IMG/VR virus record: IMGVR_UViG_3300009504_000032
Span: 1-27,952 of that record
DNA from: a virus
Length of the DNA: 27,952 nucleotides
Strand: one strand, 5' to 3'
Part shown: one piece after another, positions 12,591-27,952 of the stretch
Layout of the letters: the number at the start of each line of letters is the position of its first letter
Position numbering within the stretch: position 1 is the first letter of the stretch
Position numbers and translations under genes: made by a program
The notes under the pieces: generated by a model
Told to the model about the DNA's origin: nothing
The model's database searches: none
Seen by the model: only the letters and a program-made list of their open reading frames with translations

Positions 12591-12592
12591 AT

Positions 12593-12988
12593 CTAGTACT
12601 CCAAACTAATTTCACACGTAACCGTAGCCTGTTTAATTGTTTCGGCTTTATCTACGAAACCGAAATCATCTACTTTTAGAACCCCGTCTTGCACCAAGCA
12701 GCCAACCGTTGGGACTTGAAGAGCCAGCTTTTGCAAGTAATCATGAAACTGATTTGCTACATCAATATATTGATAAACATTATCAGTTGATGAAGGTGTT
12801 GCAATGATTAAAATTATCACGGTAAAGCGGGATTCAACTACAGGATTTGTCTTGGAGCCGGGTATTCGTATTTCTGCATAGAGCCGCGACGGGTGCAGTA
12901 GTGGGTTTCCCGCTTTTCGAACCGGGATAGGACTAAAATCTCTAAGAGCTTTAATTAAATGAGCCCGGCAAAGTGTGAGGTTATTCAT
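12593..12988 (-). CDS. Tail terminator or minor tail protein candidate
   Basis: 131 residues from the ATG at 12988, which overlaps the previous stop as ATGA; a longer upstream frame exists but would only re-read the Pro-rich 3' end of the preceding gene. The protein begins MNNLTLCRAHLIKALRDFSPIPV, a helix, then has strands (RLYAEIRIPG, RFTVIILIIAT), DNVYQYIDVANQFHDYL and VGCLVQDGVLKVDDFGF. Size, helix-then-strand order and the slot between the connector and the tube are those of tail terminators, which cap the tube. Function is inferred from order; no family signature seen. Confidence 0.55.
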   Translation of the reverse strand: MNNLTLCRAHLIKALRDFSPIPVRKAGNPLLHPSRLYAEIRIPGSKTNPVVESRFTVIILIIATPSSTDNVYQYIDVANQFHDYLQKLALQVPTVGCLVQDGVLKVDDFGFVDKAETIKQATVTCEISLEY

Positions 12989-13431: not shown

Positions 13432-14075
13432 CCAAATATCGCTGTGGCTAAACTTGCTATTATTGCTGTAATAGCAGTACCAAAAGCAATTTTAGCCCAT
13501 TTTTGATAATTTTTAACATCCCGAATGATATCTACGGCCCCGGGCACCTGTTCATCTAATGTTCTTTTGCCAAATAACCATGTTTCTATTTCAGTTAAAC
13601 GCCGCATATCTTGTAGTACTATAGTTAACTGTTGTTGCATCGTTGCTAGTGATGTTTGTACAATCACTAAATGCCGTTCTACGTCACAAACAATGCATTT
13701 ACGATTTTTTGCGGCATAAAGTACCCGTGTCACTATTTCAGGTAAAGTAGACCACTCAAATTTATTTTTATCTAAAAATACTTGTACCCCCATGTCTAAG
13801 GCATGAACTTGCATTGCAGGTGTTGTTACACCACTTAAAATAACGATAGGTAAATATTCCGGCAACGCTTTAACTACATTTAAACCCTCAGAATCAGGTA
13901 ATTTTAAATCTGTTAGAATTAAATGTATTTCTTCCCGAGGATTCAATAATAACCGCTTAGCATCTGCTAAAGTTCTAACGCGTTTTAATGTATAAGAGTC
14001 ACCCAACGGCAGCAATGCCCGCTGAACCAATTGAGCATCATTATCATTGTCCTCGATCAGCAAAAAAGTTAGCAT
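13428..14075 (-). CDS. Receiver-domain (CheY-like) protein with C-terminal membrane helix
   Basis: 215 residues, ATG with GAGG five bases upstream. Residues 1-122 are a response-regulator receiver domain with every key residue: E8/D9 acidic pair, phospho-acceptor D56 (ILTDLKLPDSEG), S81 (VILSG) and K103 (VFLDK). There is no DNA-binding output domain. A KCIVCDVERH segment (C127, C130) leads into an amphipathic helix and a single hydrophobic helix near 195-214 (AIAFGT...IASLATAIFG), an arrangement like XhlA-type membrane proteins of phage lysis cassettes. It lies between the coat and a connector gene and is coupled to the latter. It might sense a host phospho-relay at the membrane or titrate host kinases; this is inference. 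Strongly AT-rich next to the GC-rich coat gene, so possibly acquired. Confidence 0.85.
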   Translation of the reverse strand: MLTFLLIEDNDNDAQLVQRALLPLGDSYTLKRVRTLADAKRLLLNPREEIHLILTDLKLPDSEGLNVVKALPEYLPIVILSGVTTPAMQVHALDMGVQVFLDKNKFEWSTLPEIVTRVLYAAKNRKCIVCDVERHLVIVQTSLATMQQQLTIVLQDMRRLTEIETWLFGKRTLDEQVPGAVDIIRDVKNYQKWAKIAFGTAITAIIASLATAIFG

Positions 14076-14088
14076 TGTGCCTCGACCT

Positions 14089-14116
14089 AGCCCGCCACCC
14101 TTACAGGTGACGGGCT
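14089..14116 (-). promoter_or_regulatory. Intergenic hairpin between coat and receiver genes
   Basis: An 11-pair stem (one G-U pair on the minus-strand RNA), arms at 14106-14116 and 14089-14099, with a 6-base loop, fills the gap after the coat stop. No T-run follows on the minus strand, so it is not a standard intrinsic terminator. It could protect the 3' end of coat mRNA or act as a partial terminator that lowers expression of downstream genes. Confidence 0.65.
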
Positions 14117-14131
14117 ATTTCTAGTGGTTGA

Positions 14132-15550
14132 CTACGACAGAACAACCACTCCAAGAGCCGTGTCCAGCACCTTGATGCCGGCCAAGAAGTCCAGCGTCAC
14201 ACGATGCTTCTGTGCTTGGCCATCATACGTAATGACCGCACGCATCGGGATACCACTCCAGTTCGTCGAGTATCCTTCGACGCCACCACGCGGAGCTGCC
14301 AACGGTCGCAGGGCGAGCGTCATGCAGTTGCGGTGGTAACCAAAGTTGAAGCCGCCGGCCACGGGGCCAAGATGAGCCCATTGCTGGTGGCTAACACCCG
14401 CCTCCAGCGGACGATCCAACAATATCGACGTGGTTCCGGTCTGCACGATCGCATACTTCGTAGTCGATTCGTGGAACGTAACCATCTGACCCACTTGCGG
14501 CGTAGCTGTCGGATTGTTGAAGGCAATTGCTTCAGCATAACCCGCGGCATAATGACCCGCTTCATTGATTTGTAAACGCCCATATCGGGTAATAACGGCG
14601 TCGTTGACCGTAGCTTCAATAAGTCCCGGACTAATCGTGATGGCCGTTGCGTTTCGTTGATTCACAACGGTAGCCTGGTAATAAAACTTGCCGATGCGAA
14701 TCCAGTCACCGACCGTCAGACCGTCGGGTGCATCATCCAGGAAACCATCGACAGTCAGTTCCGTGGACCCGGCCGCAATGTTACCATTGTTGATGGCACC
14801 AGCAACAGAAACCGTCGATGGCAGCAACGCCGGCGTATTCTGCGACATATACGTGTGCAGACCCTGCTTCGTGCCCAGGTACCCGAACATGAGGCCTTCC
14901 ACGTCGCCACGCTGATCAGCCTGCGTGAAGATCGCGTTCTCCATCATCTTGGCGTCGGCACCGTGCCCGAGAGCCAGATACCTGCGTCCATCGTCAGGCA
15001 CCAGGTTCCCGTTCATCTTGCCGCGAGTCATGGCCAGCAGAGCGTTGCCGTTATTGTTGGCCAAGCCGCCGATCTCACCGACCTGATGAGGCGTGAATTG
15101 GTACACTTGCGACAAGCAGATCTGATCCACCATCTTCGCCAGGGCAACGGCCGCGGGTTTGATGAACACGTCGATCAGATCTTGCATGGCGAGCGTCAGG
15201 TCGCTGTCATCCAGCAAGAATGAGTGGTAAATGTGCTGATTCAACACCACGGGGATGTTGTTCAGCACGGCGTCTTCCGCCGTAACGTTGCTGCCCTTGT
15301 TCTTCCGCTTGGCCGTGAAGTTTGACGGCTGACGGGTGTTGACCGTGTCACCGAACCGGGCGAAGATTTCCTCGAAGTCGCGGTGGATCGTGTTGGCGAT
15401 CTGCATATTCTCCGTCAGAAGTGCAACACTTTCCTGTGCCCACATCTGCGGGATGAGTGCCGTGACGTTGTTGGCCCGCGAAATTCGACGTGTTTTGATA
15501 AAATTTGGTCGTAGCATGACTACCCTCTCTTGAGATTTTGTTTTCGCCAT
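14132..15550 (-). CDS. Major capsid protein (P22 coat-like fold)
   Basis: 472 residues, ATG with AGGA about ten bases upstream; overlaps the scaffold gene by 31 bases. N-terminal region has WAQESVALLTENMQIANTIHRDF, FARFGDTVNTRQPSNFTAKR and FIKPAAVALAKMVDQICLSQVY, the order and wording of P22 gene-5-like coat proteins, HK97 fold. Residues ~245-325 are an inserted beta-rich module (GSTELTVDGFLDDAP, GLTVGDWIRIGKFYYQATVV, ITISPGLIEATVNDAVITR), comparable in kind to the P22 insertion domain and to the modules in the tube proteins. The C-terminus (MTLALRPLAAPRGGVEGYSTNWSGIPMRA) is also family-typical. High GC in wobble positions compared with neighbours. High confidence. Confidence 0.95.
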   Translation of the reverse strand: MAKTKSQERVVMLRPNFIKTRRISRANNVTALIPQMWAQESVALLTENMQIANTIHRDFEEIFARFGDTVNTRQPSNFTAKRKNKGSNVTAEDAVLNNIPVVLNQHIYHSFLLDDSDLTLAMQDLIDVFIKPAAVALAKMVDQICLSQVYQFTPHQVGEIGGLANNNGNALLAMTRGKMNGNLVPDDGRRYLALGHGADAKMMENAIFTQADQRGDVEGLMFGYLGTKQGLHTYMSQNTPALLPSTVSVAGAINNGNIAAGSTELTVDGFLDDAPDGLTVGDWIRIGKFYYQATVVNQRNATAITISPGLIEATVNDAVITRYGRLQINEAGHYAAGYAEAIAFNNPTATPQVGQMVTFHESTTKYAIVQTGTTSILLDRPLEAGVSHQQWAHLGPVAGGFNFGYHRNCMTLALRPLAAPRGGVEGYSTNWSGIPMRAVITYDGQAQKHRVTLDFLAGIKVLDTALGVVVLS

Positions 15551-16311
15551 TCCATATATTCCTGTTGAGACATATTTCTGAAATCTGGTTCACCAGATTT
15601 TGTTGTTTTAGTACTTCCGGTGCCGGAAGTTGCTGTTGAAGCAAATAAGCCGGCAAATTCTTCTTGCTCACGCAGGTGAGCAACAGCTTTCTCCGGAGGT
15701 AATTGAAGCGTCTTGGTTTTACTGGGGTCTTCATCATCCTGCACTTCAATTTGAATTACCCGACGATTTTTACCCGTCGCTTTACCTTCGTCATCCATAA
15801 TGGGAACTTGACGCATCCGTTGAATCATGTAAGGTTTGATAATTCCCATTGCCTGCGGTCGGACATTATGCATGCCCATCGCAGTTGTAAGAATAGTATC
15901 CACTTCAAGCTGCTCGTGCTCGCGACGAGCAGCATCGCGTTCGTCTGTTAATTTTTGACGCTCCGCTTCCCAGGCTTTCTGCTGTTTGGCCGCCTTCTGT
16001 CTAGCCAACTCAGATTCAGTTTGAGATTGATTCCGTAATGTTTCAATCTGCTGCTCCAAGGCCAGCTTGCCTTCTGGAGTTAAGCCATCCCGTTGAATGG
16101 CTTCCAATGCAGTAAGTTGCTCTTGAATCTTTTGCTGAGCGGCTCGCTTTTCTTTTGCGAGTAACTTGTTGACTTCGTCTTGCGTAAAGGTTTTGGTCGC
16201 CGGCGGGTCAGCTGGCGGGTCAGCCGGCGGGTCGGCCGGCGGGTCACCTTCACGACAAATCGCCCGCAAAGTCAACCAGTAATATTGATATTTCATATCA
16301 AACAACCTCAT
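15520..16311 (-). CDS. Capsid scaffolding protein
   Basis: 263 residues from the ATG at 16311 (ATGA overlap with the previous gene); an in-frame ATG at 16296 has a GAGG nine bases upstream and is an equally good start. A DPPA repeat (~24-38) is followed by a long charged coiled coil (EVNKLLAKEKRAAQQKIQEQLTAL ... about residues 40-135), a globular part (TILTTAMGMHNVRPQAMGIIKPYM) and a basic C-terminus with SGEPDFRNMSQQEYMEWRKQNLKRG. This is the usual form of phage scaffolds: acidic Pro-rich head, coiled coil, basic tail that binds coat. It directly precedes the coat gene. No maturation protease is evident here. Confidence 0.85.
   Translation of the reverse strand: MRLFDMKYQYYWLTLRAICREGDPPADPPADPPADPPATKTFTQDEVNKLLAKEKRAAQQKIQEQLTALEAIQRDGLTPEGKLALEQQIETLRNQSQTESELARQKAAKQQKAWEAERQKLTDERDAARREHEQLEVDTILTTAMGMHNVRPQAMGIIKPYMIQRMRQVPIMDDEGKATGKNRRVIQIEVQDDEDPSKTKTLQLPPEKAVAHLREQEEFAGLFASTATSGTGSTKTTKSGEPDFRNMSQQEYMEWRKQNLKRG
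16199..16246 (-). repeat. 12-bp tandem repeat in scaffold gene (DPPA units)
   Basis: Four copies of a 12-base unit (plus strand GCCGGCGGGTCA with minor changes) code for the DPPA run near the scaffold N-terminus. It is the third short in-frame tandem repeat in this operon that makes a Pro/Ala-rich flexible segment. Confidence 0.88.
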
Positions 16312-16811
16312 CCCCTACTGACTGCGATGGCTCTGGGATCACGTAGGTACGGACGGAGTAATTGCCAAGCTATTGGCGAAGGAACTCCTGCCAGTACCCA
16401 CTCAGGGGCCTGTGTCCGGTCGTAGGTAGTCCGGAACGACAACGGGCCGATACCTTCGCTGACGGTCGCGAGGTCCCGTATCTCATCTTCTGGATTGTTC
16501 CCGTCAAGTATTGCAAAAGCAATTTCGCAGCAAGCCTCTTTAATGGCCCGCGGGATGTGAGTATCTTCATCCCGAGGAAAAACTAAGTCTTGCTGGTCAG
16601 ACAATTCCCGGAGCTGACTGAGAGTTGCTCCAGCTTCACGGGCGTGATATACCGCTGCTGGAAAACCCTTATAATTCAGCCGGTTGATAATTCTTGTCGC
16701 GGCAATAACCGCTGTTTGTTTGTCCGCCGGTGGGGCAGCAAACCATTTAGATGCTTTTAACGTCCCGCCTAAATAGTCTTCAACTTCTTCAAGTGTGACA
16801 TATGTTATCAT
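16308..16811 (-). CDS. Head-tail adaptor, DnaT-like/gp6-like
   Basis: 167 residues, overlapping the portal gene as ATGA. Helical N-terminus (VTLEEVEDYLGGTL), then WFAAPPADKQTAVIAATRIINRLNYKGF, LVFPRDEDTHIPRAIKEACCEIAFAILDGN and VSEGIGPLSFRTTYD. The run 'W..A...KQ.A...A.R.I..L.Y.G......L.FPR......P..I..A.CE.A.A.L' is the signature of phage adaptors annotated as DnaT-like ssDNA-binding or gp6-like; they fill the ring under the portal. The DnaT label is a historical one; an adaptor role fits the position right after the portal. Confidence 0.75.
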   Translation of the reverse strand: MITYVTLEEVEDYLGGTLKASKWFAAPPADKQTAVIAATRIINRLNYKGFPAAVYHAREAGATLSQLRELSDQQDLVFPRDEDTHIPRAIKEACCEIAFAILDGNNPEDEIRDLATVSEGIGPLSFRTTYDRTQAPEWVLAGVPSPIAWQLLRPYLRDPRAIAVSRG

Positions 16812-18445
16812 TGTTCACCTTTCTGTGATGTTATTTTTTCTAATTCTGACATGTCTAAGCCATCAGTATTACCCCGAGCATTACTTGGAACTTGTGCCTG
16901 GGCGATCCGGGCTAACCGTTCAGCGTGTTCTTTGTTAGCTTTCTCAGCCGTATCTGCGGGGAGATTTAGCAATTTACTAGCGTATTCCCGTGGGAGAACA
17001 CCTTCTTCAGTTAATTTGGGCACGTCTGCGGGACGTACTACTAATGAAGGTGCGTCTTGAATTTCCTGTTCAATTTGCTTACGGAGGTCGGCCGAGAGCT
17101 GTTGATTAAGCACAAGTGACGTAATCTGATTAGCAATAATGCGGCGGTAAGTTGCTGAGGGCACAACTTCCTGCATTTTTGATAATTTTTCAATATGTTC
17201 AAGTCGTTCTTGCACTGACATCATCTGAAAATCATTAGGATATTTTACAATATAATCATCAGATTCTTTTTCAAAATCAGCCCATATTTGAGCGACGCCC
17301 CGCTCAGCTTTTTCAAGTAAAACAGCTAACACAGCCAAACCGTGGTTAGTCGAAGCTTGACTCTGTGTTAAAGCTGTGACCGACATCAGACCACGGACTG
17401 AAACATTTTGTAATGCTAATAGCATGAGTCGGCGAATATCATCGCGTATTTTGTCATATAATTCAAGCATTTTGGGTATATTTTCAGTATCAGGACTGAT
17501 AAAATCTGGCCGATCTGAGTTCTGAGAATATCTGCGGCCATAATTTTTACCGATTTTAAGCTTAGATGCGGCTTCTGTGGGCTCGTCGCCTTCTTCGAGC
17601 ACTGGCGCCCTTAATGAGGCCATTAGTGTAGCCATATCACTTTGCTCGGTATAAACTGACATGTTGGCTCCGATAGCGTATGCTATCGTAGACGACATGA
17701 GATTTAATATCGCGGCTTGATGTCCGATAACATCTTGTATAATCGAATCATCTGTTTCTAAGATAATAATTGGTACTTCTTGCAGATCAAGTACTGCCTG
17801 AAATTGCTCGTTACCTTTTTCATCATAATACGTCACTGCCACGCCCGAGCCAGGCATTTTTCGTAAATAGCGATATTGAACTTCACCACCAATACGCAGA
17901 CTTGTGCCGGCAAAATACTTAGGATTGATATCTTTTATCAATACCTCTGTAGGTATACTCGCTCCAGCCGGAGTGTGCCATGCTAAAATATTCTCAGCTT
18001 CAATTATATAAAGATATGGTGGGTTTACAATTGCATCTGCTACTGTGGGTTCCGGCGGTAATACTGCCCGATCCACGCAGATGGCCACACGTTTCATTGT
18101 TAAAAGTTCGCGTAAAACATCCATTACTAAGAAATAATTTAATGAAGTTCCAGCTCCATCAATATTGCCTGTAAGAGCTGTTTGAAATGTTTTAGGCCCA
18201 TTCCGACGGATAACAGACCCCATTTGCGTGAAGATACCAGTAAGTATTTCACGAAGACAGGCTTTTATATACGCAGGATGGGGCGTAAGCTTCTCGCGTT
18301 CTAAATAAGTTGGATAGTCTTCTTCGGGCAACTTTTGTAGTTGATTCCGAATATAAGATGGCCCGGCATTCAATGCTTCCCGCCAGGTAGCCCATTGAGA
18401 GCTATCGGCCACGTATGCTGGGCTCCGCACGTCAATCAACTTCAT
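16808..18445 (-). CDS. Portal protein (DUF4055-like)
   Basis: 545 residues, start ATG with GGGAG five bases upstream, overlapping the terminase stop as ATGA. N-terminal block (WREALNAGPSYIRNQLQKLP, EDYPTYLEREKLTPHPAYIK, REILTGIFTQMGSVI) has the pattern of DUF4055-type portals, which are the dodecameric DNA gate at one capsid vertex. Further typical parts: YFLVMDVLRELLTMKRVAICVD, AENILAWHTP, and the helical stem IRDDIRRLMLLALQNVSV with the downstream Q/S-rich crown. Length is in the family range (about 450-550). Located between terminase and adaptor as in most tailed phages. Confidence 0.87.
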   Translation of the reverse strand: MKLIDVRSPAYVADSSQWATWREALNAGPSYIRNQLQKLPEEDYPTYLEREKLTPHPAYIKACLREILTGIFTQMGSVIRRNGPKTFQTALTGNIDGAGTSLNYFLVMDVLRELLTMKRVAICVDRAVLPPEPTVADAIVNPPYLYIIEAENILAWHTPAGASIPTEVLIKDINPKYFAGTSLRIGGEVQYRYLRKMPGSGVAVTYYDEKGNEQFQAVLDLQEVPIIILETDDSIIQDVIGHQAAILNLMSSTIAYAIGANMSVYTEQSDMATLMASLRAPVLEEGDEPTEAASKLKIGKNYGRRYSQNSDRPDFISPDTENIPKMLELYDKIRDDIRRLMLLALQNVSVRGLMSVTALTQSQASTNHGLAVLAVLLEKAERGVAQIWADFEKESDDYIVKYPNDFQMMSVQERLEHIEKLSKMQEVVPSATYRRIIANQITSLVLNQQLSADLRKQIEQEIQDAPSLVVRPADVPKLTEEGVLPREYASKLLNLPADTAEKANKEHAERLARIAQAQVPSNARGNTDGLDMSELEKITSQKGEQ

Positions 18446-20055
18446 AACAACTCCCTTACATCACGGTTGTGTTGGCGAGCCACAGCTATTGGAAATGCAA
18501 TTTCAGAATACACTCGTGAGAATGTATAATGATCTGGACCTGTACTCAAATATTGCGAACTAATTTCAGAATCAGATTTCCGAACATACCGGCGGACAAG
18601 AGCTTTAATATGATCCATAAACTCTTGGGGAAGATCTAATGGTACAGTTATTCGCCGCGTCTTATAACGTGACAGAGCTGTGTCCAACCACGCGGTCCGG
18701 TTTGTTTTCAAAATAATATCGCCTGTGATAGTATTATCAACTTCACTCCGAACAAATTTACATAACCGAACTAAACCAGGAAATAATGCGGCCATTTCAA
18801 GTGCTTTACGTGATTCAGGTTCAGAATCTATGACTATTTGAGCTGGATTAAAATCTGTTATGAGATTTTTTATCTCGCTAAAAGAGGTTAAAGTTCCTAC
18901 ACGTAAAGTTTTTGCTGTTGCAGCTAAATTGATGTCGGCACAAGGTCGATCAAATGCCCAAGTATCGACACAATAATGTAAAAGTTTACCCACGTCAATT
19001 CCTATAGTAATAAGTCTACCACGCGGTGGTGGGTCTAACATTGTATATTGACCGTAACAAGATCTAACATCTTCAAATTCAATTCGAGCACCCTGTAAGA
19101 GCTTAGCGAGTCCGAGCATTGAGTTCCAGAGTTCCTGCTCTGCAGCAAGATCAATTTGGGCTCGGAAAACTGCACGTGTGAACTCTTCAGGTGTAACTGT
19201 GGCTGAATATAATTGATTTATATAAAATCCATCAATTGGTGAAACACGCTGTGGTACAAACTTAGCTGGTGCAAGAAATTCTGGTTTGGCTTCATGCGGT
19301 AACTTAACTTGACATTCATTGCATTTTAGATAAGATTTAGCACAATCCGGGTCTGTATGGGATTCCCCGCATAATTCTAAATTATCCGGGTATGTTAATT
19401 CAATATGTTTGGAGCATGAAGGGCACGGAAAGAAGAAGTGACTCTCTGTGCTTTCTTTTAGTTTAGCATTAATCCCGTAATCCGGCACCGTCGGCGTACT
19501 AATATACCATGATTTCTTAATAAGCTGACCCGCCAAGCGTTGTTGGGCCAGAGGTATCTTTTCAGGCGGCATCTCATCGACTTCATCAAATACAATCAAT
19601 GAGACGTCGACAGATTTCAACGCTGAATTGCTATTCATACCGCGAATATAAATTGTGCCAGAAGCAGCACGTTTTACGCCTACATTTTTATTTTTAGTAA
19701 ATAGTGTTGAGAGGTAATCAGAGCCGTCGATAATCTTATCAAATCTAGTAATTGAGAAGTCTGACGCATCCGGCGTACGTGTGGGAAGAAGGTATAATGC
19801 GTTTCGACCGTCGGCGATAGTTTTAAGTGTAATACCCACTGTTAAAGTTGAATAGCCTAATTGAGCCGCTTTTTGACCGACGCAGACATCAGCTTCTGCG
19901 TCCAACATTTCACGCATCCAGGGGTGGTGCTTATAACGTAATGGGCCCTCAAATGGTTGCCCGAGTATTATGTATTTAGATGCCCAGCGGGATGCAGTTG
20001 TGAGTGTTCGACTGTTGAGCTGCTCTGCTGCGTGTGTCAGCAGATCACGTAACAA
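18442..20055 (-). CDS. Terminase large subunit, GpA family
   Basis: 537 residues. The only start compatible with the length is TTG at 20055, overlapping the previous gene by 11 bases and lacking a clear ribosome site. It cuts and pumps the DNA into the prohead. ATPase: Walker A-like G60-QKAAQLGYST-70, Walker B LIVFDE with D157 and E158, and motif III ISTPT (185-189). A zinc-ribbon pair CPSC (211-214) and CNEC (245-248) is typical of the GpA family (lambda gpA). Nuclease acidic residues D354 (TIGIDVG) and D410 (IVIDSE) are present. Such terminases mostly use cos-type ends, but no cos site is seen. High confidence. Confidence 0.93.
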   Translation of the reverse strand: MLRDLLTHAAEQLNSRTLTTASRWASKYIILGQPFEGPLRYKHHPWMREMLDAEADVCVGQKAAQLGYSTLTVGITLKTIADGRNALYLLPTRTPDASDFSITRFDKIIDGSDYLSTLFTKNKNVGVKRAASGTIYIRGMNSNSALKSVDVSLIVFDEVDEMPPEKIPLAQQRLAGQLIKKSWYISTPTVPDYGINAKLKESTESHFFFPCPSCSKHIELTYPDNLELCGESHTDPDCAKSYLKCNECQVKLPHEAKPEFLAPAKFVPQRVSPIDGFYINQLYSATVTPEEFTRAVFRAQIDLAAEQELWNSMLGLAKLLQGARIEFEDVRSCYGQYTMLDPPPRGRLITIGIDVGKLLHYCVDTWAFDRPCADINLAATAKTLRVGTLTSFSEIKNLITDFNPAQIVIDSEPESRKALEMAALFPGLVRLCKFVRSEVDNTITGDIILKTNRTAWLDTALSRYKTRRITVPLDLPQEFMDHIKALVRRYVRKSDSEISSQYLSTGPDHYTFSRVYSEIAFPIAVARQHNRDVRELL

Positions 20056-22156
20056 GAGCTAAAATATCTTTCAATGTCTGAGCTTGTGCAGCGGTTAGAC
20101 CCGAAATTTCACCGATTTCAACTGATGGAATTCGGCTAGTTAAGATATAGCCATGCCACGTGTCATCAACATCTTGAGCGTCGTCAACAGTAAGAACTGC
20201 ACCAGCTTGGGCAATCACGCGTGCAAAGCGATAAGTACCGGCCCCGCCGAGATGGAACTGAAGGGTATGGCCTACATAATCCGCGTCTGAATCAAATCGA
20301 TCACCTGAGCAAGTAATATCATCGCCGTCAATGCTAGCGATATTAAATATCAAAGGACGAATCTGCCACCAGAACCATGCGGGCAAATTATGTTCAGTAT
20401 TTTGCATAATTGTAGGTTCAATTTTTGTATAATGGACGCCCTGAACAATTTGAGAAACGCTAATTCCGGCACGAAGAACTGTGATGTTTGACCGGTCAAG
20501 ATAAAAACGATCAGCAGCATTAGCCCGTTGGCTACGAAATTGAATTCGTACAACGCCCGTATCTTGGTTTTGATGCTGCGGCTGCAATACATAATCACGC
20601 GTAACATTACTGTCACTAACAGGAATCCGTGTACCGCCGGTAGATAATTCTCCCCATTCAGTTGTGGCGATATTGTACGCCCAAACACTAACTTCACGGC
20701 TTGCGACAGTACCACCCGATCCGGTAGTTCGCCCTGTAATTTCAAGCGTGTCTGCCACGCCGTCGGTACAGATAAATTGAATTTCAACAGTCAGAATAGC
20801 TTCGTCTGCTGGGCTGAAAACAAGATCAGGGTCTAAAGTTGATTGTGTATCGGCTATTGTACCAGAGATATATACTCCAGTAGTAAGATCATAGTCAAAT
20901 ACTGGATCAGCAAAAGCCCGCATGGTGCTGGCTTCGGGTAATAAATTGATTTGATTCGCGAGTGTTGCGGCCGTATGTTGTACTAAAGGTACCTCACAAA
21001 TCGTGGGAACACAATCAGGAGCATCAATCATAATTGTAAGGTTTGTTGCATTAAGATGATTATAAATATCATTTTCAAAATGAAGCTCATACATACCCAC
21101 GGGTGGTGCGGCTGCAAATCGAACTTTACCTACACTTGGAGCTTGATAAGTTCCGGGCGTGGTTACGTTTTCAACTTCGTCTGATACCACAGCATATTCA
21201 TATGTGGGTAAATTTGAATTATTTGGACGTACTGTAACTGTAAGTCCCGCTGTTTCATGAGTTAAACTTGGCCCTTCGACGGGCAATCTTAAAATATTAC
21301 CAACTGAGCCGTGTAAAATTTCCGGTAAAATGTGGAAGTTAAACGATGGCATTGGTGCCACGGGCGGGTCCATTAATGGGACTTCACAAAGTGTCGTTGC
21401 ATGATCCGGACCCGAAACCATAATCGTGAGATTTGTAGCATTAAGATGAGATAAAATATCATTTTCAAGATGAATCTCATACATACCTGCAGGCGATGCA
21501 AATGCAAACCGGATATGTCCCGCAGTTGGAGCTTGATACGTGCCAATTGTAGCAATATTCTCAATCTCACTGTCGCCGGCAGCATATACGTAAGTAGGAG
21601 TATCCTCATTATTGGGTCTAATTGCAATAAATAACCCCATCGATTCAAATGTCAACCCACCACCAGACGGCTCACCATCTTTACGCATAATAGGTACGCG
21701 TAAAATCACGCCGGTAGATCCGTGTTGGATACTTGGCAATATCTGAAAAGTCGGGGGTGCAGGTGCTTTGAAATCGTTAATGGAATTGATTGCTGTTTCC
21801 TTAACACTTTGAATATCGACTTGATAAAATCCAGCAGGACTAAATGGAACTTGAGTGTGTAATGTACCACCAGCCCAGTATCCCTGAATTGATTCAATTA
21901 GCGTGTCAGTAATTTCCCGTTCGGCCCCTAAACGCTTATAAATATCATAAATGTACGGGCCATTTGAAATAGTAAGGTGTGTTGCACCGTAAAAATAATC
22001 AGGCCCTTCAGTAAGATCCTGCCCATAGTCGTCCCAATCATCAGGATCAAATGCAACTAACGTTGCGGTCGCCCGATCCACGTGTTGAGTTCCGGGTAAA
22101 AGTTCCCGTTGAACAAAATAAAGATCTTCACCAGTGGCTGTATGTTTAATCTTCAT
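20045..22156 (-). CDS. Appendage/fibre-type protein with two repeated beta domains
   Basis: 703 residues; start overlaps the previous gene by 11 bases. Residues 137-261 and 274-391 are two copies of one ~120-residue domain sharing ILP-x-I-x-HGS-x-G, an RPNN turn, TPTY or LPTY, IENIATIGTYQAP or VENVTTPGTYQAP, GMYEIHLEND or GMYELHFEND, and NATNLTIM. These strand-rich repeats look like Ig-like adhesin domains of phage receptor-binding or baseplate proteins. The N-terminus carries WDDYGQDLTEGPDYFYGATHLT; residues ~440-560 form another beta domain (VEIQFICTDGVADTLEIT), and the C-terminus ends with a short helix (GLTAAQAQTLKDIL) as in trimeric fibres. It lies before terminase, not after the tape measure, which is unusual for a tail-tip gene. 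Could also be a head fibre. Confidence 0.65.
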   Translation of the reverse strand: MKIKHTATGEDLYFVQRELLPGTQHVDRATATLVAFDPDDWDDYGQDLTEGPDYFYGATHLTISNGPYIYDIYKRLGAEREITDTLIESIQGYWAGGTLHTQVPFSPAGFYQVDIQSVKETAINSINDFKAPAPPTFQILPSIQHGSTGVILRVPIMRKDGEPSGGGLTFESMGLFIAIRPNNEDTPTYVYAAGDSEIENIATIGTYQAPTAGHIRFAFASPAGMYEIHLENDILSHLNATNLTIMVSGPDHATTLCEVPLMDPPVAPMPSFNFHILPEILHGSVGNILRLPVEGPSLTHETAGLTVTVRPNNSNLPTYEYAVVSDEVENVTTPGTYQAPSVGKVRFAAAPPVGMYELHFENDIYNHLNATNLTIMIDAPDCVPTICEVPLVQHTAATLANQINLLPEASTMRAFADPVFDYDLTTGVYISGTIADTQSTLDPDLVFSPADEAILTVEIQFICTDGVADTLEITGRTTGSGGTVASREVSVWAYNIATTEWGELSTGGTRIPVSDSNVTRDYVLQPQHQNQDTGVVRIQFRSQRANAADRFYLDRSNITVLRAGISVSQIVQGVHYTKIEPTIMQNTEHNLPAWFWWQIRPLIFNIASIDGDDITCSGDRFDSDADYVGHTLQFHLGGAGTYRFARVIAQAGAVLTVDDAQDVDDTWHGYILTSRIPSVEIGEISGLTAAQAQTLKDILALVT

Positions 22157-22649
22157 TTTCAGTCACATTCATTTCTGTAATATTGCCGTCGTCATCGCGA
22201 ACGATAGTCCACGTATAGACGCCGTCGGTATAACTGATAAGAGTATCATCCTCACCGTATGTATAGTTCACGGTACGCCCATTGATAAATTCAATTTGTG
22301 TAATGAGCCCGGCTTCATCACGCGTGATGTGCCTGGATCGGGTTTTGATAAAATCCGGATTGTAGAAATCTTCGGGGATCTCAGCTACACCCGGAACAGA
22401 TTGATTGACAGTAATATTCCGCATGTAAGGGACAGGGTCTGCAACTGAGATGCGGAAGAATTTATAGTTAAAAATTGTTTTGGGGAGCGGACAAGGTGTG
22501 TTGATTTGAGATAAATTATCAAAATAAAGCCCGTTGTCGGACACTTGAAGTGTCCCGACAATGGGGTGATCGGCAGTCAGCGAGACGCTGGTTGCCTCAG
22601 AGTTGACGGCTGTTACATCTGACAGCCGCTGTTCTGGGTGTATTTTCAT
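22146..22649 (-). CDS. Small structural protein, paralogue of the gene at 22988
   Basis: 167 residues from ATG 22649, chosen for GGAG five bases upstream; a longer frame to 22676 would start inside a terminator stem. Its first ~85 residues (MKIHPEQRLSDVTAVNSEAT, DHPIVGTLQVSDNGLYFDNL, CPLPKTIFNYKFFRISVADP) match the gene at 22988-23311 (PIVGSIQVSKNGLWFEDL, LPCKLPKRVLEYKFFRLAV) closely. A second part (RDEAGLITQIEFINGRTVNY, TWTIVRDDDGNITEM) looks like YD-repeat-type strands. Function unknown; grouping with fibre-type genes suggests a virion surface or baseplate part. Confidence 0.7.
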   Translation of the reverse strand: MKIHPEQRLSDVTAVNSEATSVSLTADHPIVGTLQVSDNGLYFDNLSQINTPCPLPKTIFNYKFFRISVADPVPYMRNITVNQSVPGVAEIPEDFYNPDFIKTRSRHITRDEAGLITQIEFINGRTVNYTYGEDDTLISYTDGVYTWTIVRDDDGNITEMNVTENED

Positions 22650-22658
22650 ATTTGCTCC

Positions 22659-22692
22659 AAAAAAATCAAAACGCATCTTCCTTGATGCGTTT
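22659..22692 (-). terminator. Intrinsic terminator overlapping the next ribosome site
   Basis: On the minus strand a perfect 9-pair stem (AAACGCATC and GATGCGTTT, loop of six) is followed by TGA and seven T. The T-run touches the GGAG ribosome site of the gene starting at 22649, so the terminator and start signal share bases. It stands in the middle of the operon and would reduce readthrough into the fibre-type gene and the head module, unless antitermination or a coupled ribosome prevents it. Confidence 0.85.
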
Positions 22693-22700
22693 CGACTAAT

Positions 22701-22970
22701 CTAGTCCAAGGGGTCAGGATCAGCGGGGGTCGAATTTGCCGCAACTGCTGCGGCCAAACTGTCGCTGGACTCCCGTAGATCCGCGACCAATGCGGCCAGC
22801 GCCTCAGGATCGCCTTGACACTCCTCGATTTTCCTCGCCAAGTCAGCAATCAATGCAACGGCGGACTGCGTTGTACCCCGTATGTTCTCAACTGCTGCGG
22901 ATAATTCAAGCAATTTTGCCACAACAAAACTCCCAAAGATAAGAAATACAAGCATTAAAACCCATAACAT
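22701..22970 (-). CDS. Small membrane protein with helical tail
   Basis: 89 residues from ATG 22970, picked for GGGGAGGA about seven bases upstream; an ATGA-coupled ATG at 22991 would add seven residues. One N-terminal hydrophobic segment (MLWVLMLVFLIFGSFVVAKLL) is followed by an amphipathic heptad-rich helix (AALVADLRESSDSLAAAVAANS). Form fits a spanin-, holin-like or anchor protein, but nothing decides between them. It ends just before an intrinsic terminator. Confidence 0.7.
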   Translation of the reverse strand: MLWVLMLVFLIFGSFVVAKLLELSAAVENIRGTTQSAVALIADLARKIEECQGDPEALAALVADLRESSDSLAAAVAANSTPADPDPLD

Positions 22971-22987
22971 AGTAATTCCTCCCCAAC

Positions 22988-23311
22988 TCATGGTTTAGTT
23001 GGCGGCCGCACCTTTTGTTGCTGCTTGACGTGTGGCTGCTCATCGGTAACAACCGTGATTTCCCGCAGCTGGTGAAGTGGTTCTTGAACCGCGAGGCGGA
23101 AGAATTTGTATTCAAGAACTCTCTTCGGCAGTTTGCAGGGTAAAGTAACCGGTGATGTGTCTTTCAGATCCTCAAACCAAAGACCATTTTTGGATACTTG
23201 AATCGATCCAACGATGGGATCTTCCTCAGGTTTGATATCCAGCTGAATGCTGGTTGCCCCAGGATCAACTGCCACCGATTCAGAAAATCGGGTATCAGGT
23301 TGCAAAATCAT
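22988..23311 (-). CDS. Small structural protein, paralogue of the gene at 22146
   Basis: 107 residues from ATG 23311 (ATGA overlap, GGAG six bases upstream). Shares its core with the gene two positions downstream: DPIVGSIQVSKNGLWFEDL, LPCKLPKRVLEYKFFRLAV, LREITVVTDEQ. It lacks that gene's second part and instead ends in a Lys/Gln/Pro tail. The pair is separated only by the membrane protein gene, so it arose by a local duplication. Function unknown. Confidence 0.7.
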   Translation of the reverse strand: MILQPDTRFSESVAVDPGATSIQLDIKPEEDPIVGSIQVSKNGLWFEDLKDTSPVTLPCKLPKRVLEYKFFRLAVQEPLHQLREITVVTDEQPHVKQQQKVRPPTKP

Positions 23312-24006
23312 ACCACACTCCAATCTGTTCGTGACTGTGTTGCGTAGCCCCAGCAATACCAACCCTCAATGTCAGGACCACTAATACTACGAGACATCGT
23401 CATTGAAGATGTTCGGCTCCAACCGGCCGCAAAAACATCCAAAGCTAATTCAAACCAGTGTTTACACCATAAGTCTGACTCAAGTGCTTCTGGCATTATA
23501 TTTGGTTGAGCGGCATACAGTATAGGGTGAATATATTTAATTATTGTTCCCCATGAATAGGGTAAAGACAATTCATACTCAGTAATATATACCAATTCTG
23601 CGCTTGCCCGCCAATAAGCTTCAGTCGTTTGAAAAGCCATAATTTCGGGGAATCGGTAGTCACGGCCGACATGCCGGAGGCCCCAAAATTGTTGTAAGAA
23701 CCAGCCCCACTTTTTATTTGAAAATGGGCCCGTAAAAAACCAATCACGGTCTAAGTCAATTAAATCATTTGCCCCTACCGGCGGGCCATATTGTATTGCT
23801 AATGATGTAGGTGTGTTTGATGTTACATTATTTTTTGATCTTAAAGTGTTACCGGCTAACGGCGGCAACCCAAATAAATTATTTAATCGGAGAGCAATAC
23901 TCCAGCTTTCCCCATTTGGAAGTAATGTCGCTGGCTGCCAAGTACCGTCTAAAGGGAAATAATTAAAATCAGCTGGACTAAGGAAAGTCTGAATACAGTC
24001 TGCCAT
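23308..24006 (-). CDS. Trp-rich protein of unknown function
   Basis: 232 residues from ATG 24006; a TTG at 24015 would start inside the tRNA-like element. No convincing ribosome site precedes ATG 24006, which lies four bases after the tRNA-like 3' end. The protein is Trp- and Tyr-rich (DWFFTGPFSNKKWGWFLQQF, LRHVGRDYRFPEIMAF, LWCKHWFELALDVFAAGW), without signal peptide or membrane helix. Placed among fibre-type genes. I do not recognise a family. Confidence 0.65.
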   Translation of the reverse strand: MADCIQTFLSPADFNYFPLDGTWQPATLLPNGESWSIALRLNNLFGLPPLAGNTLRSKNNVTSNTPTSLAIQYGPPVGANDLIDLDRDWFFTGPFSNKKWGWFLQQFWGLRHVGRDYRFPEIMAFQTTEAYWRASAELVYITEYELSLPYSWGTIIKYIHPILYAAQPNIMPEALESDLWCKHWFELALDVFAAGWSRTSSMTMSRSISGPDIEGWYCWGYATQSRTDWSVV

Positions 24007-24009
24007 AAG

Positions 24010-24078
24010 CACCAAGCGTCGGACTCGAACCGACTTCTTTCCCTTTGAGGAATGTTTTACCCGTTAAACTAGCTTGGA
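24010..24078 (-). tRNA. tRNA-like element with abnormal anticodon arm
   Basis: Reading the minus strand, a 6-pair acceptor (CCAAGC with GCTTGG; the first pair T-T is a mismatch), TA, a D arm GTTT/AAAC with loop AACGGGTA, and a perfect T arm (GTCGG, loop TTCGAGT, CCGAC) are in order. In between is TTCCTCAAAGGGAA, which gives only a 4-pair stem and a 6-base loop; a normal 7-base loop with U33 would give anticodon CAA (Leu) but with a 3-pair stem and no long variable arm. Length is 69 bases, about four short, and no CCA is encoded. It looks degenerate, or serves as a processing signal. The next CDS starts right after it. Confidence 0.6.
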
Positions 24079-24098
24079 GGCCACCCCACGAGCGTGAT

Positions 24099-24590
24099 CT
24101 ATTGTTCTAACAACAACTGCCACCAGACGTTAGCGAATGCGACTGCACGACAGCCTGTACCCACACCTATGTGAGCATATACTTGTGTAGTGCCCTCGTT
24201 CATCCACTCAGTTGCCGAACATGCACATGTAGTAGTTACTGTACGTGAAGCAATGAAGAAATAATAAGAATAGCCGTCAGCAGTAGTGCTGTGCCACATT
24301 AAATCGCTAGACCTTACAAGTGCATTTATAATATAGTCAGGAAAAGGTGTTTCCCCCGTGGTGACACCCACATTAAGGTCGTGACATGGGCACTTTTGTA
24401 CCTTAATTTCACCTACAACCGTATAAGTAAGTTGATTTCCGTTCACGTCAATAAATAGAGGTTCAGCATCAATAATAACTAAAGGTTCTAATACAGTAAC
24501 TGGGTCTCCGGGCCCCGGCCCTGGCGGCGGCTGAGTGAAACCAACTGACGGTGCAAATAGCACCAACAATAATATGATAATTCGTATCAT
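24099..24590 (-). CDS. Exported Cys-containing protein
   Basis: 163 residues, ATGA overlap with the peptidase gene and GGAG eight bases upstream. Signal peptide: MIRIIILLLVLFAPSVGFTQ, followed by PPPGPGPGDP. The mature part is beta-rich with five Cys (C67, C69, C122, C124, C147; KCPCHD and TCACSA), so disulphides or metal binding are possible. No lipobox. In a phage operon such proteins may be cell-surface modifiers or superinfection factors; function unknown. Confidence 0.7.
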   Translation of the reverse strand: MIRIIILLLVLFAPSVGFTQPPPGPGPGDPVTVLEPLVIIDAEPLFIDVNGNQLTYTVVGEIKVQKCPCHDLNVGVTTGETPFPDYIINALVRSSDLMWHSTTADGYSYYFFIASRTVTTTCACSATEWMNEGTTQVYAHIGVGTGCRAVAFANVWWQLLLEQ

Positions 24591-25444
24591 ATTGCAATCT
24601 CCGGCGGAATTGTCATGGACGTAATACAGTAAGCCGAAACTAAACCAGCCCGAAGTCGGGATATCGAATCATAACGAATCACATCGTATGAGTCAACGTA
24701 ACCCGCAACTTGACTAGCTTGATTCCAGAAAGCAAGAGGTACGGCATGTCCTTCACGACCGTGGCCGACTAACCAACCGTGGAGTAAAAGGCAAACTGTT
24801 TGTTCCCATCGGGTGGGAATTATCACTTCCACGGGTCGGTGTTGCATTGCCGTCGTTTGCCAACCCGCAGGAAATTGACTTAGGGGCACCCACGCCCCGC
24901 TGCTTTGATTGATGCCACCACGTCCTGCGGTGCCGGTAAGGGTATGCCGGAAGTTATACTCCCGAGGTTGAATACGGTCAGGGAGCATTCCGCGGCGGAC
25001 TGCAATATCCATAACTCCACGTGTGCTTGCACCGCCACGCTGGCGTGGATTTGCTTCCGCGTAAACAGAAAGACATGAATACCAAATACTGCGGGCCGTG
25101 GCCGAGATTGGGAGCCTGCGGCCAGCCACAGGTGGTCCGACTTTTATGCCTTGCTGCTTGTTAGCCGCACCCTCGCCTACTGCACGTAGTGCGTGAGTAG
25201 TGCATTCGTGTGTGGGGTTTTGGTTGGTAAATCGGTCGAGATAATTGATTCCCCAATTATTGTGTTTATCATTATCCCGTGCTTTATCGGCCCAGTCTTT
25301 GGGTTCGATCCACAGTGCTTGCGGAAAGGTTCTGGCGGCATCGCCACAGGCTTCCCACACAGCCCCAGCTTCATCTGGAAGGTAACCATCGAATGGAGTA
25401 ACTACATCGATAAGTTTTGGGTCAATTGGGGAGAACGTGTTCAT
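24587..25444 (-). CDS. Papain-like cysteine peptidase
   Basis: 285 residues; overlaps the preceding gene by 23 bases. The segment YLDRFTNQNPTHECTTHALRA (69-87) has the Gln/Cys-helix pattern of clan CA peptidases, with Q75 as oxyanion Gln and C81 as nucleophile; GHAVPLAFWNQASQVAGYVDS (232-252) gives H233 as general base and N241 or D251 as the third residue. Length ~285 and this order fit C1-type enzymes of phages. No signal peptide, so it acts in the cytoplasm or in the virion, e.g. in capsid or fibre maturation. GC-rich. The alternative is an inactive structural relative. Confidence 0.65.
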   Translation of the reverse strand: MNTFSPIDPKLIDVVTPFDGYLPDEAGAVWEACGDAARTFPQALWIEPKDWADKARDNDKHNNWGINYLDRFTNQNPTHECTTHALRAVGEGAANKQQGIKVGPPVAGRRLPISATARSIWYSCLSVYAEANPRQRGGASTRGVMDIAVRRGMLPDRIQPREYNFRHTLTGTAGRGGINQSSGAWVPLSQFPAGWQTTAMQHRPVEVIIPTRWEQTVCLLLHGWLVGHGREGHAVPLAFWNQASQVAGYVDSYDVIRYDSISRLRAGLVSAYCITSMTIPPEIAI

Positions 25445-26048
25445 AGATATGATTTTCTGTTGTAGGGCGTCTGATAATTTTTATCACAGTGCCGTCCGCA
25501 TCTAAAAGTACTAGCGCCGGGAGTCCGGCTGTTTGTGCCGCTTGTATAGCTTCCTGTGGAGCACCGGGGGTATTTTGATCCACGGCAATTGCAAATATTC
25601 CGTGTTCTTGGTTTAAATTGTGAAGAGCTTGGCTGACGGCTGCTGGCGGCGAGCCTTGGTCCTTCTCGTAAACATAAATTGCTCGTGTTGGGGTTATAGG
25701 GGTTATTGGAGTTTCTGGGTCTTGGTCACCGACTGTGATACGGTGATAAGATATATCAGGCCCCATTATTACGTAAACACCGGGTAAATCTAAATCGATA
25801 ACCAGTTCAAATGCTGAGGTACCATCTTCATTGAAAACTAAACGTCGTTGGAAGATGTTTACATACGAATTTTTGGGGGCTGAGATTTTAAATTCTATCG
25901 CAAATATTTCTGGTATTTGCTCAAGAGATTTAATTTCTGGGAACCCCGTAACTTCAAGCCTCACTTCTTGAGGCGTAGCCAGCTCTGTCGGCCCCTCGAA
26001 GGAGACCGACAAAGCTAGCAGCAGCAAACTAATTGACGTTAACTGCAT
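25422..26048 (-). CDS. Exported thioredoxin-like fold protein lacking the Cys pair
   Basis: 208 residues from ATG 26048 (GAGG nine bases upstream); ATG 26054 is alternative, and the much longer frame to 26180 is spurious overlap with the preceding gene. Signal peptide MQLTSISLLLLALSVSFEGPT. A beta-sandwich part follows (VRLEVTGFPEIKSLEQIP, FELVIDLDLPGVYVI), then a linker (TPITPITPT) and a C-terminal alpha/beta domain with RAIYVYEKD, GIFAIAVDQN, TAGLPALVLLDADGTVI: the cis-Pro and strand order of thioredoxin-like folds but no CxxC. Probably a binding rather than redox domain. Function unknown. Confidence 0.6.
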   Translation of the reverse strand: MQLTSISLLLLALSVSFEGPTELATPQEVRLEVTGFPEIKSLEQIPEIFAIEFKISAPKNSYVNIFQRRLVFNEDGTSAFELVIDLDLPGVYVIMGPDISYHRITVGDQDPETPITPITPTRAIYVYEKDQGSPPAAVSQALHNLNQEHGIFAIAVDQNTPGAPQEAIQAAQTAGLPALVLLDADGTVIKIIRRPTTENHIYEHVLPN

Positions 26049-26376
26049 CGTCATAAGCCTCTTGCCAGAGATCATCTCCGGCATCGCGGCTGAGAGCATC
26101 CTTGATTTCAGCTTCGATTGCTTCCGAAAGTGCCTGCGTTGCCGCGGCTCGCCGCCCAAGGCGAACACCACACTCCACACAGATTTGACGGGCCGTGTTG
26201 TTGATTGCCATTCGCTGCCTGAAGCTCAACCTGCGAAGACCTTCACGCATTTCCCGCCCGTTGTCGAAACACAACTTGAGCAGCTCGCTGAGGAAAGGTG
26301 CAAGCAGGGGCATGACAATTTCGACCCAGCCCGCACGTTTGATGATGTTGGTATAAGCGGTTTCAAGTGGGGACAT
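26029..26376 (-). CDS. Small helical protein, unknown
   Basis: 115 residues from ATG 26376 (GGAG six bases upstream); the frame upstream to 26481 repeats the preceding gene's 3' end and is not used. Mostly helical: MSPLETAYTNIIKRAGWVEIVMPLLAPFLSELL, then an Arg-rich part (REMREGLRRLSFRQRMAINN) with C-V-E-C, and an acidic end (DDLWQEAYDDAVNVN). Overlaps the neighbours on both sides by 14 and 20 bases. An amphipathic, possibly membrane-associated N-terminal helix is visible; no family recognised. Confidence 0.65.
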   Translation of the reverse strand: MSPLETAYTNIIKRAGWVEIVMPLLAPFLSELLKLCFDNGREMREGLRRLSFRQRMAINNTARQICVECGVRLGRRAAATQALSEAIEAEIKDALSRDAGDDLWQEAYDDAVNVN

Positions 26377-26794
26377 CTTTAGCTCCTTGATAGAGGGGAC
26401 AGTCTTTGTTTGTACACACCATATATAGGGGACAATGTTGATTTGAGCAGAATTCTTCTCCGGTTTCAAGAGTTGAATCACCGTCTTGTGCTGCCGACAT
26501 TCCCCTATTAAAGTTTAACGCTCTCTGTGATTGTAAAAGTAAATCAAATTTATGATTTACTTCAGTACGAACTTGAACTAAAATTGCAATTAAAGTTAAT
26601 AATGCCGTAAGAGTTCCAGTCATTACACTGCCAACTGCTGCTATTAACAGTACAGCATTTTCAGATTCCATGACAATTATATAAGCAATAATAGCTAAAC
26701 CCGCCAGAATAATCAGCATAACAGATACAGTAAATAGTGCCATTATTGCCGGTGATGTACCTACAACGTGTTTACGCCTCATCGATGGACTCAA
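26363..26794 (-). CDS. Two-helix membrane protein with duplicated C-x4-CPLY motif
   Basis: 143 residues; the TTG at 26794 is favoured because GGAGG lies six bases upstream, whereas ATG 26782 has no site. Hydrophobic helices ~16-41 (LFTVSVMLIILAGLAIIAYI) and ~47-73 (AVLLIAAVGSVMTGTLTALL). The tail then has a helix and CSNQHCPLY followed two residues later by CTNKDCPLY (C116, C121, C127, C132), a duplicated motif likely to bind a metal. Holin-like topology is possible, but the Cys repeat is not a holin feature I know. Confidence 0.75.
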   Translation of the reverse strand: MSPSMRRKHVVGTSPAIMALFTVSVMLIILAGLAIIAYIIVMESENAVLLIAAVGSVMTGTLTALLTLIAILVQVRTEVNHKFDLLLQSQRALNFNRGMSAAQDGDSTLETGEEFCSNQHCPLYMVCTNKDCPLYQGAKDVPT

Positions 26795-27272
26795 TTAGAT
26801 CCTCCAATCTTTGATAAATTTTATCAAGTATAGCTATATCTTGAACTTCATCCGCTACAATTTGCATTAGTGTTCCGATTAGTTTAAGTGCTTCTGCACG
26901 AGGAATTAGGTTACGTTTATCGTGTTCGAGCTTGAGTGCCCCTTCAGTAAGCTTTTGCACTTTTGATATTAAATCTGCAATATGACCTGAATAAACTATT
27001 AACGAGTCTGAGTCGGTAAGCATCTGGGCACGAGCCGCGAGAATTCGCTTTAATAAAGTTGTTTCAGCCGTTAGATCAAACAGCTGGCCACGCGGGATGT
27101 TAGGCGTAGTCGTGCCGATTGCATATTCAAAATTCGTACGACGGTGTTTGCGGCAGTATTGTTGGTCATCCTCTACTGCAAAGTGACACCGTTTTCCGTT
27201 GGCTAAAACTGCCTCACATTGAATGTCGTCAAGCGACGCAGGTCGCATGGGTTCGGTTAAGTAGTATGTCAC
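26772..27272 (-). CDS. Zinc-finger-containing protein, candidate small terminase or regulator
   Basis: 166 residues; GTG start at 27272 with only a weak AAGG about eleven bases upstream (ATG 27248 is a fallback that keeps the finger). The N-terminal finger is C19-x9-C29-x10-C40-x2-H43 (QCEAVLANGKRCHFAVEDDQQYCRKH, in two parts), a form common at the start of phage and plasmid proteins. A helical domain follows (ETTLLKRILAARAQML, LISKVQKLTEGALKLE). As first gene of the structural operon it may be a DNA-packaging small subunit or a transcription regulator. Not decided by sequence. Confidence 0.6.
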   Translation of the reverse strand: MTYYLTEPMRPASLDDIQCEAVLANGKRCHFAVEDDQQYCRKHRRTNFEYAIGTTTPNIPRGQLFDLTAETTLLKRILAARAQMLTDSDSLIVYSGHIADLISKVQKLTEGALKLEHDKRNLIPRAEALKLIGTLMQIVADEVQDIAILDKIYQRLEDLIESIDEA

Positions 27273-27276
27273 ATTT

Positions 27277-27291
27277 TGATAAACCTTATCA
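27277..27291. promoter_or_regulatory. Operator-like palindrome before the first gene
   Basis: TGATAA-ACC-TTATCA is a perfect 6-base inverted repeat with a 3-base centre, five bases upstream of the GTG start of the first operon gene. The size fits a dimeric regulator's half-sites. No partner gene is known. Confidence 0.4.
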
Positions 27292-27380
27292 CGTGGACAA
27301 AAAGCTCCAGATCTCTTCTGCTATAAGGATAACAGTACATTCTTATCTATTTTGTTTTGACCGGTTACCCAGCACCATTT

Positions 27381-27446
27381 TCTGGAGTTTGCGACCTGGT
27401 ACACACGGCGGCCACGCGGTGTGTTCCGGAGTTTGCGACCTGGTAC
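27381..27446. repeat. 22-bp direct repeat pair
   Basis: Copies at 27381-27402 and 27425-27446 (44-base period, one mismatch), each ending GCGACCTGGTAC and followed by GGCGGCC within four bases. The intervening bases can pair (CACAC with GTGTG). Iteron-like or protein-binding sites. Confidence 0.75.
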
Positions 27447-27447
27447 G

Positions 27448-27633
27448 GCGGCCAGCGGCCAGCGGCCAGCCGCTACCGAGCGGCCAGCCGCTCGCAGTGA
27501 TATTTATTATCCGGGGCTGGGGTTTCTTGTTTCTTGTTTCTTGTTTCTTGTTTTTTGTCTTTTGTTTTTTGTTTTTTTGTTTTTTGTTGCTGGCCGCTGG
27601 TTTGGTAGCGGCTGGCCGCTGGCCGCTGGCCGC
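27448..27633. repeat. 30-bp perfect inverted repeat enclosing T-rich loop
   Basis: Arms 27448-27477 and 27604-27633 are exact reverse complements made of GGCCAGC/GCTGGCC words. The 126-base centre includes a second palindrome (CGAGCGGC-CA-GCCGCTCG, 27478-27495 approximately) and the T/G tract. A large cruciform or single-stranded hairpin is possible, the kind of structure found at rolling-circle or strand-initiation origins. Confidence 0.8.
27523..27586. repeat. Heptamer T/G-only tract
   Basis: Four exact TTTCTTG heptamers (27523-27550), then TTTTTTG-like derivatives to 27586. The plus strand here is nearly free of A and contains C only in the heptamers. Extreme strand asymmetry and low melting temperature suggest a DNA-unwinding element between GC-rich hairpin arms. 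Confidence 0.85.
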
Positions 27634-27715
27634 TGGCTACCGACCGGTAGCGGCTGGCCGCTGGCTACCGACCGGTAGCGGCTGGCCGCTCGCTACCGAC
27701 CGGTAGCGGCTGGCC
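27604..27715. repeat. 28-bp GC-rich palindromic tandem repeats
   Basis: Full units at 27646-27673 and 27674-27701, a partial unit at 27702-27715, and a longer first unit from 27604 carrying an extra 14 bases. Each reads GGTAGCGGCTGGCCGCT followed by a closing CTACCGACC, so each can fold on itself. Resembles short GC-rich repetitive extragenic palindromes. Confidence 0.85.
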
Positions 27716-27793
27716 TAATTGATATTTCTTATCCGGCTGGGTCCGTACTCAGTATGGGAGCAGTGCGTGTTGGCAGACAGTATTGGCCAGCTG

Positions 27794-27811
27794 AAAAACC
27801 CCACCAGGGGT
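27794..27811 (-). terminator. Short intrinsic terminator after the hairpin array
   Basis: On the minus strand ACCCC-TGGT-GGGGT is followed by further T residues: a 5-pair GC stem with a T-run. It lies at the downstream end of the hairpin array when read on the minus strand and would end a transcript entering from the right. Confidence 0.5.
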
Positions 27812-27820
27812 AGCGGCGGC

Positions 27821-27952
27821 GGAAACGAATAGCGGAGGGGTGACCGGCTGTACTCAGACGGTCAGCCCGGAGCGACTGGAAACGATTAGCGGAGACCGCC
27901 ACCGTAACCTCCTGTACTCAGGAGGTTACGGTGGCGGCCGGAGCGACTGGAA
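27821..27952. repeat. Hairpin array with constant loop and linker, variable stems (cut by window edge)
   Basis: Linker copies containing GGAAACGATTAGCGGAG (or GGAAACGAATAGCGGAG) begin at 27821 and 27878, with a truncated one at 27939-27952; the fuller linker adds CGGAGCGACT before GGAA. Between linkers lie stem-loops: 27838-27868 (13-pair, one mismatch and one bulge) and 27896-27937 (19 perfect pairs). Stems differ entirely in sequence but both close on CTG-TACT-CAG. A lone GTACTCAG at 27745 has no good stem. The array likely continues beyond 27952. Not a CRISPR: the variable parts are palindromes. Confidence 0.75.

Follow-up and report, generated by a model that had tools for sequence, protein, structure and literature searches.

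Two hairpin units in a repeat-rich noncoding tract ahead of a probable small-terminase gene in an uncultured tailed phage

The right end of IMGVR_UViG_3300009504_000032, a 27,952-base IMG/VR virus record that represents a fragment of an uncultured tailed phage, carries two hairpins that are both real and far beyond chance. They represent one unit in two diverged copies, the second of which is cut by the contig end. Within the window, that is, the whole record as analysed here, the hairpins lie in noncoding DNA ahead of a probable small-terminase (TerS-like) gene, and this position is the useful new finding, putting an unusual hairpin motif at a site that recurs among genomes and suggesting a link to packaging-site evolution. 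The observation is real but smaller than first described, comprising two related units. Tentatively, we read the hairpins as the edge of a noncoding, TerS-proximal cis region, pac/cos-like and/or concerned with control of the late operon, which would evolve by repeat turnover and template switching.

The two hairpin units

The following features make up the array:

27821-27881, plus strand: hairpin unit 1, with linker GGAAACGAATAGCGGAG, an imperfect hairpin at 27837-27868 and linker CCGGAGCGACTGGAA
27878-27952, plus strand: hairpin unit 2, with linker GGAAACGATTAGCGGAG, a perfect hairpin at 27896-27937 and linker CCGGAGCGACTGGAA, cut by the contig end
27833-27837 with 27868-27872, and 27890-27894 with 27939-27943, plus strand: CGGAG direct repeats flanking each hairpin, as read from the sequence

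Hairpin 1 forms 12 of 14 pairs, with mismatches at loop distances 4 and 11 and the loop TACT at 27851-27854; hairpin 2 forms 19 perfect pairs around the loop TACT at 27915-27918 and is thus five pairs longer. Both share the cap CTG-TACT-CAG, linker CCGGAGCGACTGGAA is exact at 27867-27881 and 27938-27952, and linker GGAAACGAWTAGCGGAG is present at 27821 and 27878. The original prediction of two stem-loops with this cap, one of them with 19 perfect pairs, each followed by a constant linker, is therefore confirmed. Its description of the stems as unrelated was overstated, as the inner arms near the loop (GTGACCGGCTGTACTCAGACGGT and GTAACCTCCTGTACTCAGGAGGT) share 78% identity across 23 nt, while the outer parts differ. 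Removal of both hairpins leaves a 22-nt direct repeat, CGGAGCGACTGGAAACGAWTAG (27833-27943). Taken together, the similarity of the inner arms, the CGGAG flanks and this direct repeat identify the hairpins as diverged copies of one unit. An array cut by the window edge had been proposed; the contig end does cut unit 2, but only two units are present, and a third occurrence of GTACTCAG, at 27745, shows no significant resemblance to the unit (p 0.07-0.12). The record ends at 27952, and a near-identical contig (L123) spans only 8445-23293. A coding role of the units was rejected, the spacings of 57 and 71 nt shifting the reading frame.

Among sites with a 4-nt loop in 20 shuffled windows, none formed more than 11 of 14 pairs, and the perfect hairpin next in length within the window has 10 pairs. 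Compared with shuffles, the folding z-score of the array was -6.5 as RNA and -6.9 as DNA. Changes on both sides of the stem were seen between the units at five pairs of the 14-pair stem when the arms were anchored on the loop, and at only two pairs in a sequence alignment; since the latter number was equalled by 123 of 500 shuffles, the two-copy covariation is not statistically meaningful. Selection on pairing cannot be proved from two copies, and the searches found no relatives of the unit. Template switching, in which one arm is repaired from the other, is known to produce multi-base compensatory changes in stems while the loop is kept, or sometimes inverted (PMC8794818). The earlier claim that pairing itself is selected is hence not supported, because such a process changes both arms and keeps the loop. 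The units provide a concrete case in which paired stem changes are not to be taken as selection on pairing unless template switching has been ruled out.

No copy of the unit was among the matches listed in pattern scans of IMG/VR and GTDB, and GenBank phages gave none either. Rfam gave nothing in the tract at its gathering threshold, in agreement with the earlier statement that no named family with this layout is known. The covariance-model search that had been proposed, using a model of the two units, gave no match in 566 kb of related phages or in 100 genomes without an established link to the host. Linker 17-mers gave chance matches only, as did a 14-mer linker scan of viral contigs among the matches listed (for example, L104, where the match fell in collagen-like coding repeats). 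When 289 genomes of the phylum of the Pontiellaceae record were searched at the DNA level, only chance matches of 20-37 nt came up, and palindrome and direct-repeat patterns of the adjoining tract had no relatives in the pattern scans. A scan for GCGGAG...CTGTACTCAG recovered one family (L162, L179 and L199) with the same cap and a perfect stem, but with another stem sequence, other linkers and a T-rich tail, and this was judged a coincidence. As a separate observation, L162 (near 10341), L179 and L199 carry several unlike hairpins close together, one of which has the CTG-TACT-CAG cap and the T-rich tail. Absence of relatives of the unit in these scans is not proof of absence.

The repeat-rich tract and the adjoining gene

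The recognised phage genes of the window, namely those for the large terminase (TerL), portal, scaffold, major head protein and a very long tape-measure protein, are all on the minus strand. The noncoding right end (27273-27952) lies directly 5' of the TerS-like gene and is dense in unrelated palindromes and in 7- and 28-nt repeats:

18442-20055, minus strand: large terminase (phrog_675, 8e-71)
26772-27272, minus strand: probable small terminase (TerS-like), assigned by synteny, with a CCCH zinc motif and a helical body
27380-27446, plus strand: two 23-nt direct repeats, TTYYGGAGTTTGCGACCTGGTAC, 44 nt apart
27448-27633: long inverted repeat with arms 27448-27477 and 27604-27633, 30 of 30 positions complementary
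27522-27588: 7-nt tandem repeat GTTTCTT/GTTTTTT, 9.4 copies, inside the loop of the long inverted repeat
27625-27715: 28-nt tandem repeat GCTGGCCGCTGGCTACCGACCGGTAGCG, 3.2 copies at 98%, itself palindromic
27801-27819, minus strand: hairpin resembling a weak terminator, with a TTTTT run after it, on the downstream side of the hairpin units

The long inverted repeat belongs to a longer stem that is predicted to enclose the T-rich heptamers, and the segment 27378-27815 folded as DNA has a z-score of -10.5.

Several other features of the window are recorded here in their own right. The tape-measure-like protein (428-9412, minus strand, 2994 aa) contains a DNA polymerase exonuclease-type domain before its tape-measure match (phrog_192, 7e-26, residues 1034-1239, motif VFVDTETTGF), and CAGGTG is repeated 15 times at 1231-1323 within its gene. 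Repeats of 12 nt occur at 5223-5285 and 16195-16246. Three adjacent proteins at 10421-12590 (minus strand) match one and the same stretch in each relative and look like tandem duplicates. A single tRNA gene lies at 24009-24078 (minus strand), its anticodon not being assignable by ARAGORN, and a cassette of about 6.7 kb (20045-26794, minus strand) separates the TerS-like gene from TerL.

Relatives comprised phage contigs gathered via the large terminase, plus two contigs from genome bins. A TerS-like profile, built from seven relatives with the window left out, matches the window gene at 6e-13. In 11 relatives it detects a homologue located 5' of TerL; the distance is about 1.1 kb or shorter in eight of them, and in the other three the gene is displaced. 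In G011 the homologue of the window gene sits directly before TerL. In the window, as in G006, L131 and L132, the TerS-like gene begins some 4-7 kb away from TerL, the distance in the window being 6.7 kb. The family has four invariant residues (C, C, C and H), which are kept in the window member (the CCCH members are 26772-27272 on the minus strand, L125, L130, L131, L132, L262, L263, L266, L275, L279 and L281). The family has no confident match in Pfam, PHROGs or GenBank phages, and searches with the fold, for which the model is of modest confidence, and of solved structures gave no usable match. By position and synteny alone, gene 26772-27272 is a probable small-terminase candidate, and the protein seems to belong to an undescribed family of TerS-like proteins that carry a zinc motif.

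Repeats ahead of TerS and possible explanations

In each of the nine relatives whose sequence extends far enough, the 1.3 kb ahead of TerS ranks by repeat density within the top 0.7-17% of genome positions; in the window it ranks within the top 0.9%. The combined Fisher p for the nine relatives is about 5e-6, which is only a guide because the relatives are akin to each other, the measure was picked after the first examples and L263 has a run of N. Set against the other intergenic DNA of the same contig, this stretch is denser in seven of the eight relatives that allow the comparison, the exception being G008; L262, being without another intergenic segment, stood outside this comparison. The repeats differ in sequence among the relatives and from those of the window, and are not conserved between phages. 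Thus G004 carries, upstream of TerS (L279:4303-4872), eight palindromes of the form TAAGTCCTT-7 or 8 nt-AAGGACTTA with a constant stem and a loop found in both orientations (GCTACAT and ATGTAGC), the region folding with a z-score of -18; G010 has an 8-nt tandem repeat at this place, G005, a complete relative whose ends overlap, has 14- and 28-nt repeats with hairpins, and G008 has an 11-nt repeat.

Since the repeats at this site change from one relative to the next, the tract would represent a cis-acting control or packaging region rather than a named RNA family. Its place directly 5' of the TerS-like gene is one that a pac or cos site might take, the TerS assignment itself being positional, and repeats that TerS could read stand at the same place in relatives, albeit with unrelated sequences. 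A packaging or late-operon control region is the best single reading because the pac of SPP1 sits in a repeat-rich region at the small-terminase gene (PMC4737164), and we regard it as a plausible but tentative explanation. Packaging would start in the tract, where TerS may read repeated or structured DNA and TerL may cut nearby; from its position, the tract may also, or instead, control the packaging and late operon. During replication, template switching would copy one stem arm onto the other, so that stems drift while loop and linker stay. Complementarity then need not be selected pair by pair, because the copying process itself keeps the arms complementary. This pattern fits both the window, where the loop is kept, and G004, where it is flipped, although the window offers two paralogous units and no ancestral state. 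Against the explanation stand the lack of conservation of the repeats between phages and the 6.7 kb between the TerS-like gene of the window and TerL. Noncoding DNA ahead of a gene may also gather repeats for other reasons, and G008 is no denser there than in its other intergenic DNA. A packaging site at this place would have to be recognised, yet each phage seems to have built it anew from unrelated repeats. Among the DNA roles allowed by the original prediction, a packaging-related site gains support, because the tract adjoins the probable TerS gene and the corresponding site in relatives is also dense in repeats.

A more specific form, in which the packaging-initiation site of this phage family is a fast-evolving hairpin array upstream of a zinc-containing small terminase and is recognised by structure (a cruciform or a fixed-loop RNA hairpin) and not by sequence, is distinctly unlikely. 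If it were true, each phage would keep the architecture while the sequence turns over, as structure rather than sequence would be recognised.

Functionless repeat turnover, with slippage and template switching producing repeats and hairpins without a specific role in an intergenic hotspot, is somewhat unlikely. Unrelated repeats with periods of 7, 14, 28 and 44 nt stand side by side, relatives carry other repeats at the same place, the units had no homologues in the scans, and template switching explains the stems (PMC8794818); turnover alone, however, does not account for the high repeat density ahead of one particular gene in all nine relatives. The strong RNA fold (z -6.5 and -5.6) and the terminator-like site at 27819-27801 on the minus strand, which is the strand of the recognised phage genes, agree with a minus-strand transcribed element, either part of an upstream transcript (its 3' end or UTR) or a small hairpin-repeat RNA, terminating ahead of the late operon. 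We consider this unlikely, as shuffles are expected to contain 1.7 +/- 1.3 such terminator-like sites and the observed one is not above this number, the tract has no Rfam match, the searches gave no relatives of the unit, and the two-copy covariation is within that of shuffles. No promoter-like site and one terminator-like site were seen. The minus-strand terminator proposed originally is therefore present but unexceptional, and of the proposed noncoding RNA of repeated hairpins the repeated unit holds, with one weak terminator behind the RNA reading.

Iteron-type origins resemble such direct repeats near T-rich heptamers, and the 22-nt direct repeat with its inserted hairpins could accordingly belong to a DNA replication origin or a primase/initiator site of iterons and hairpins. 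This appears very unlikely, given that no replication gene was recognised nearby and the GC skew does not turn at this end of the window. The CGGAG direct repeats that flank each hairpin like target duplications would suit a mobile or host-derived palindromic (REP/MITE-like) element family inserted at CGGAG, but this is highly improbable: copies were seen neither in the window outside the array region nor in relatives, viral or genome pattern scans, or plasmid records, and what the hairpins have in common is the cap and not stable ends.

Comparison with known systems

REP/BIME palindromes, which are associated with RAYT transposases, are short palindromes after a GGAG-type tetranucleotide. The window resembles them in this respect, but no dispersed copies were seen. 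The repetitive hairpin-forming and double-hairpin elements of mitochondria are, like the units described here, intergenic multi-copy hairpins. In the sponge mitochondrial elements, stems are conserved and loops vary (PMC2800124), a pattern nearer to that of G004, whereas it is reversed in the window, with a conserved loop and a varying stem. The hairpins attributed to template switching by Monttinen and Loytynoja (2022, PMC8794818) show multi-base compensatory changes and a kept loop, a pattern that the units of the window would fit; they were, however, described in RNA genes along reconstructed histories, whereas the window provides only two paralogous units. In the pac regions of SPP1 and SF6, repeats lie at and upstream of the small-terminase gene and their sequences differ between related phages (PMC4737164). 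The window similarly has repeats at a TerS-like gene that differ among relatives; the SPP1 pac repeats are described as direct repeats, whereas the window has strong hairpins.
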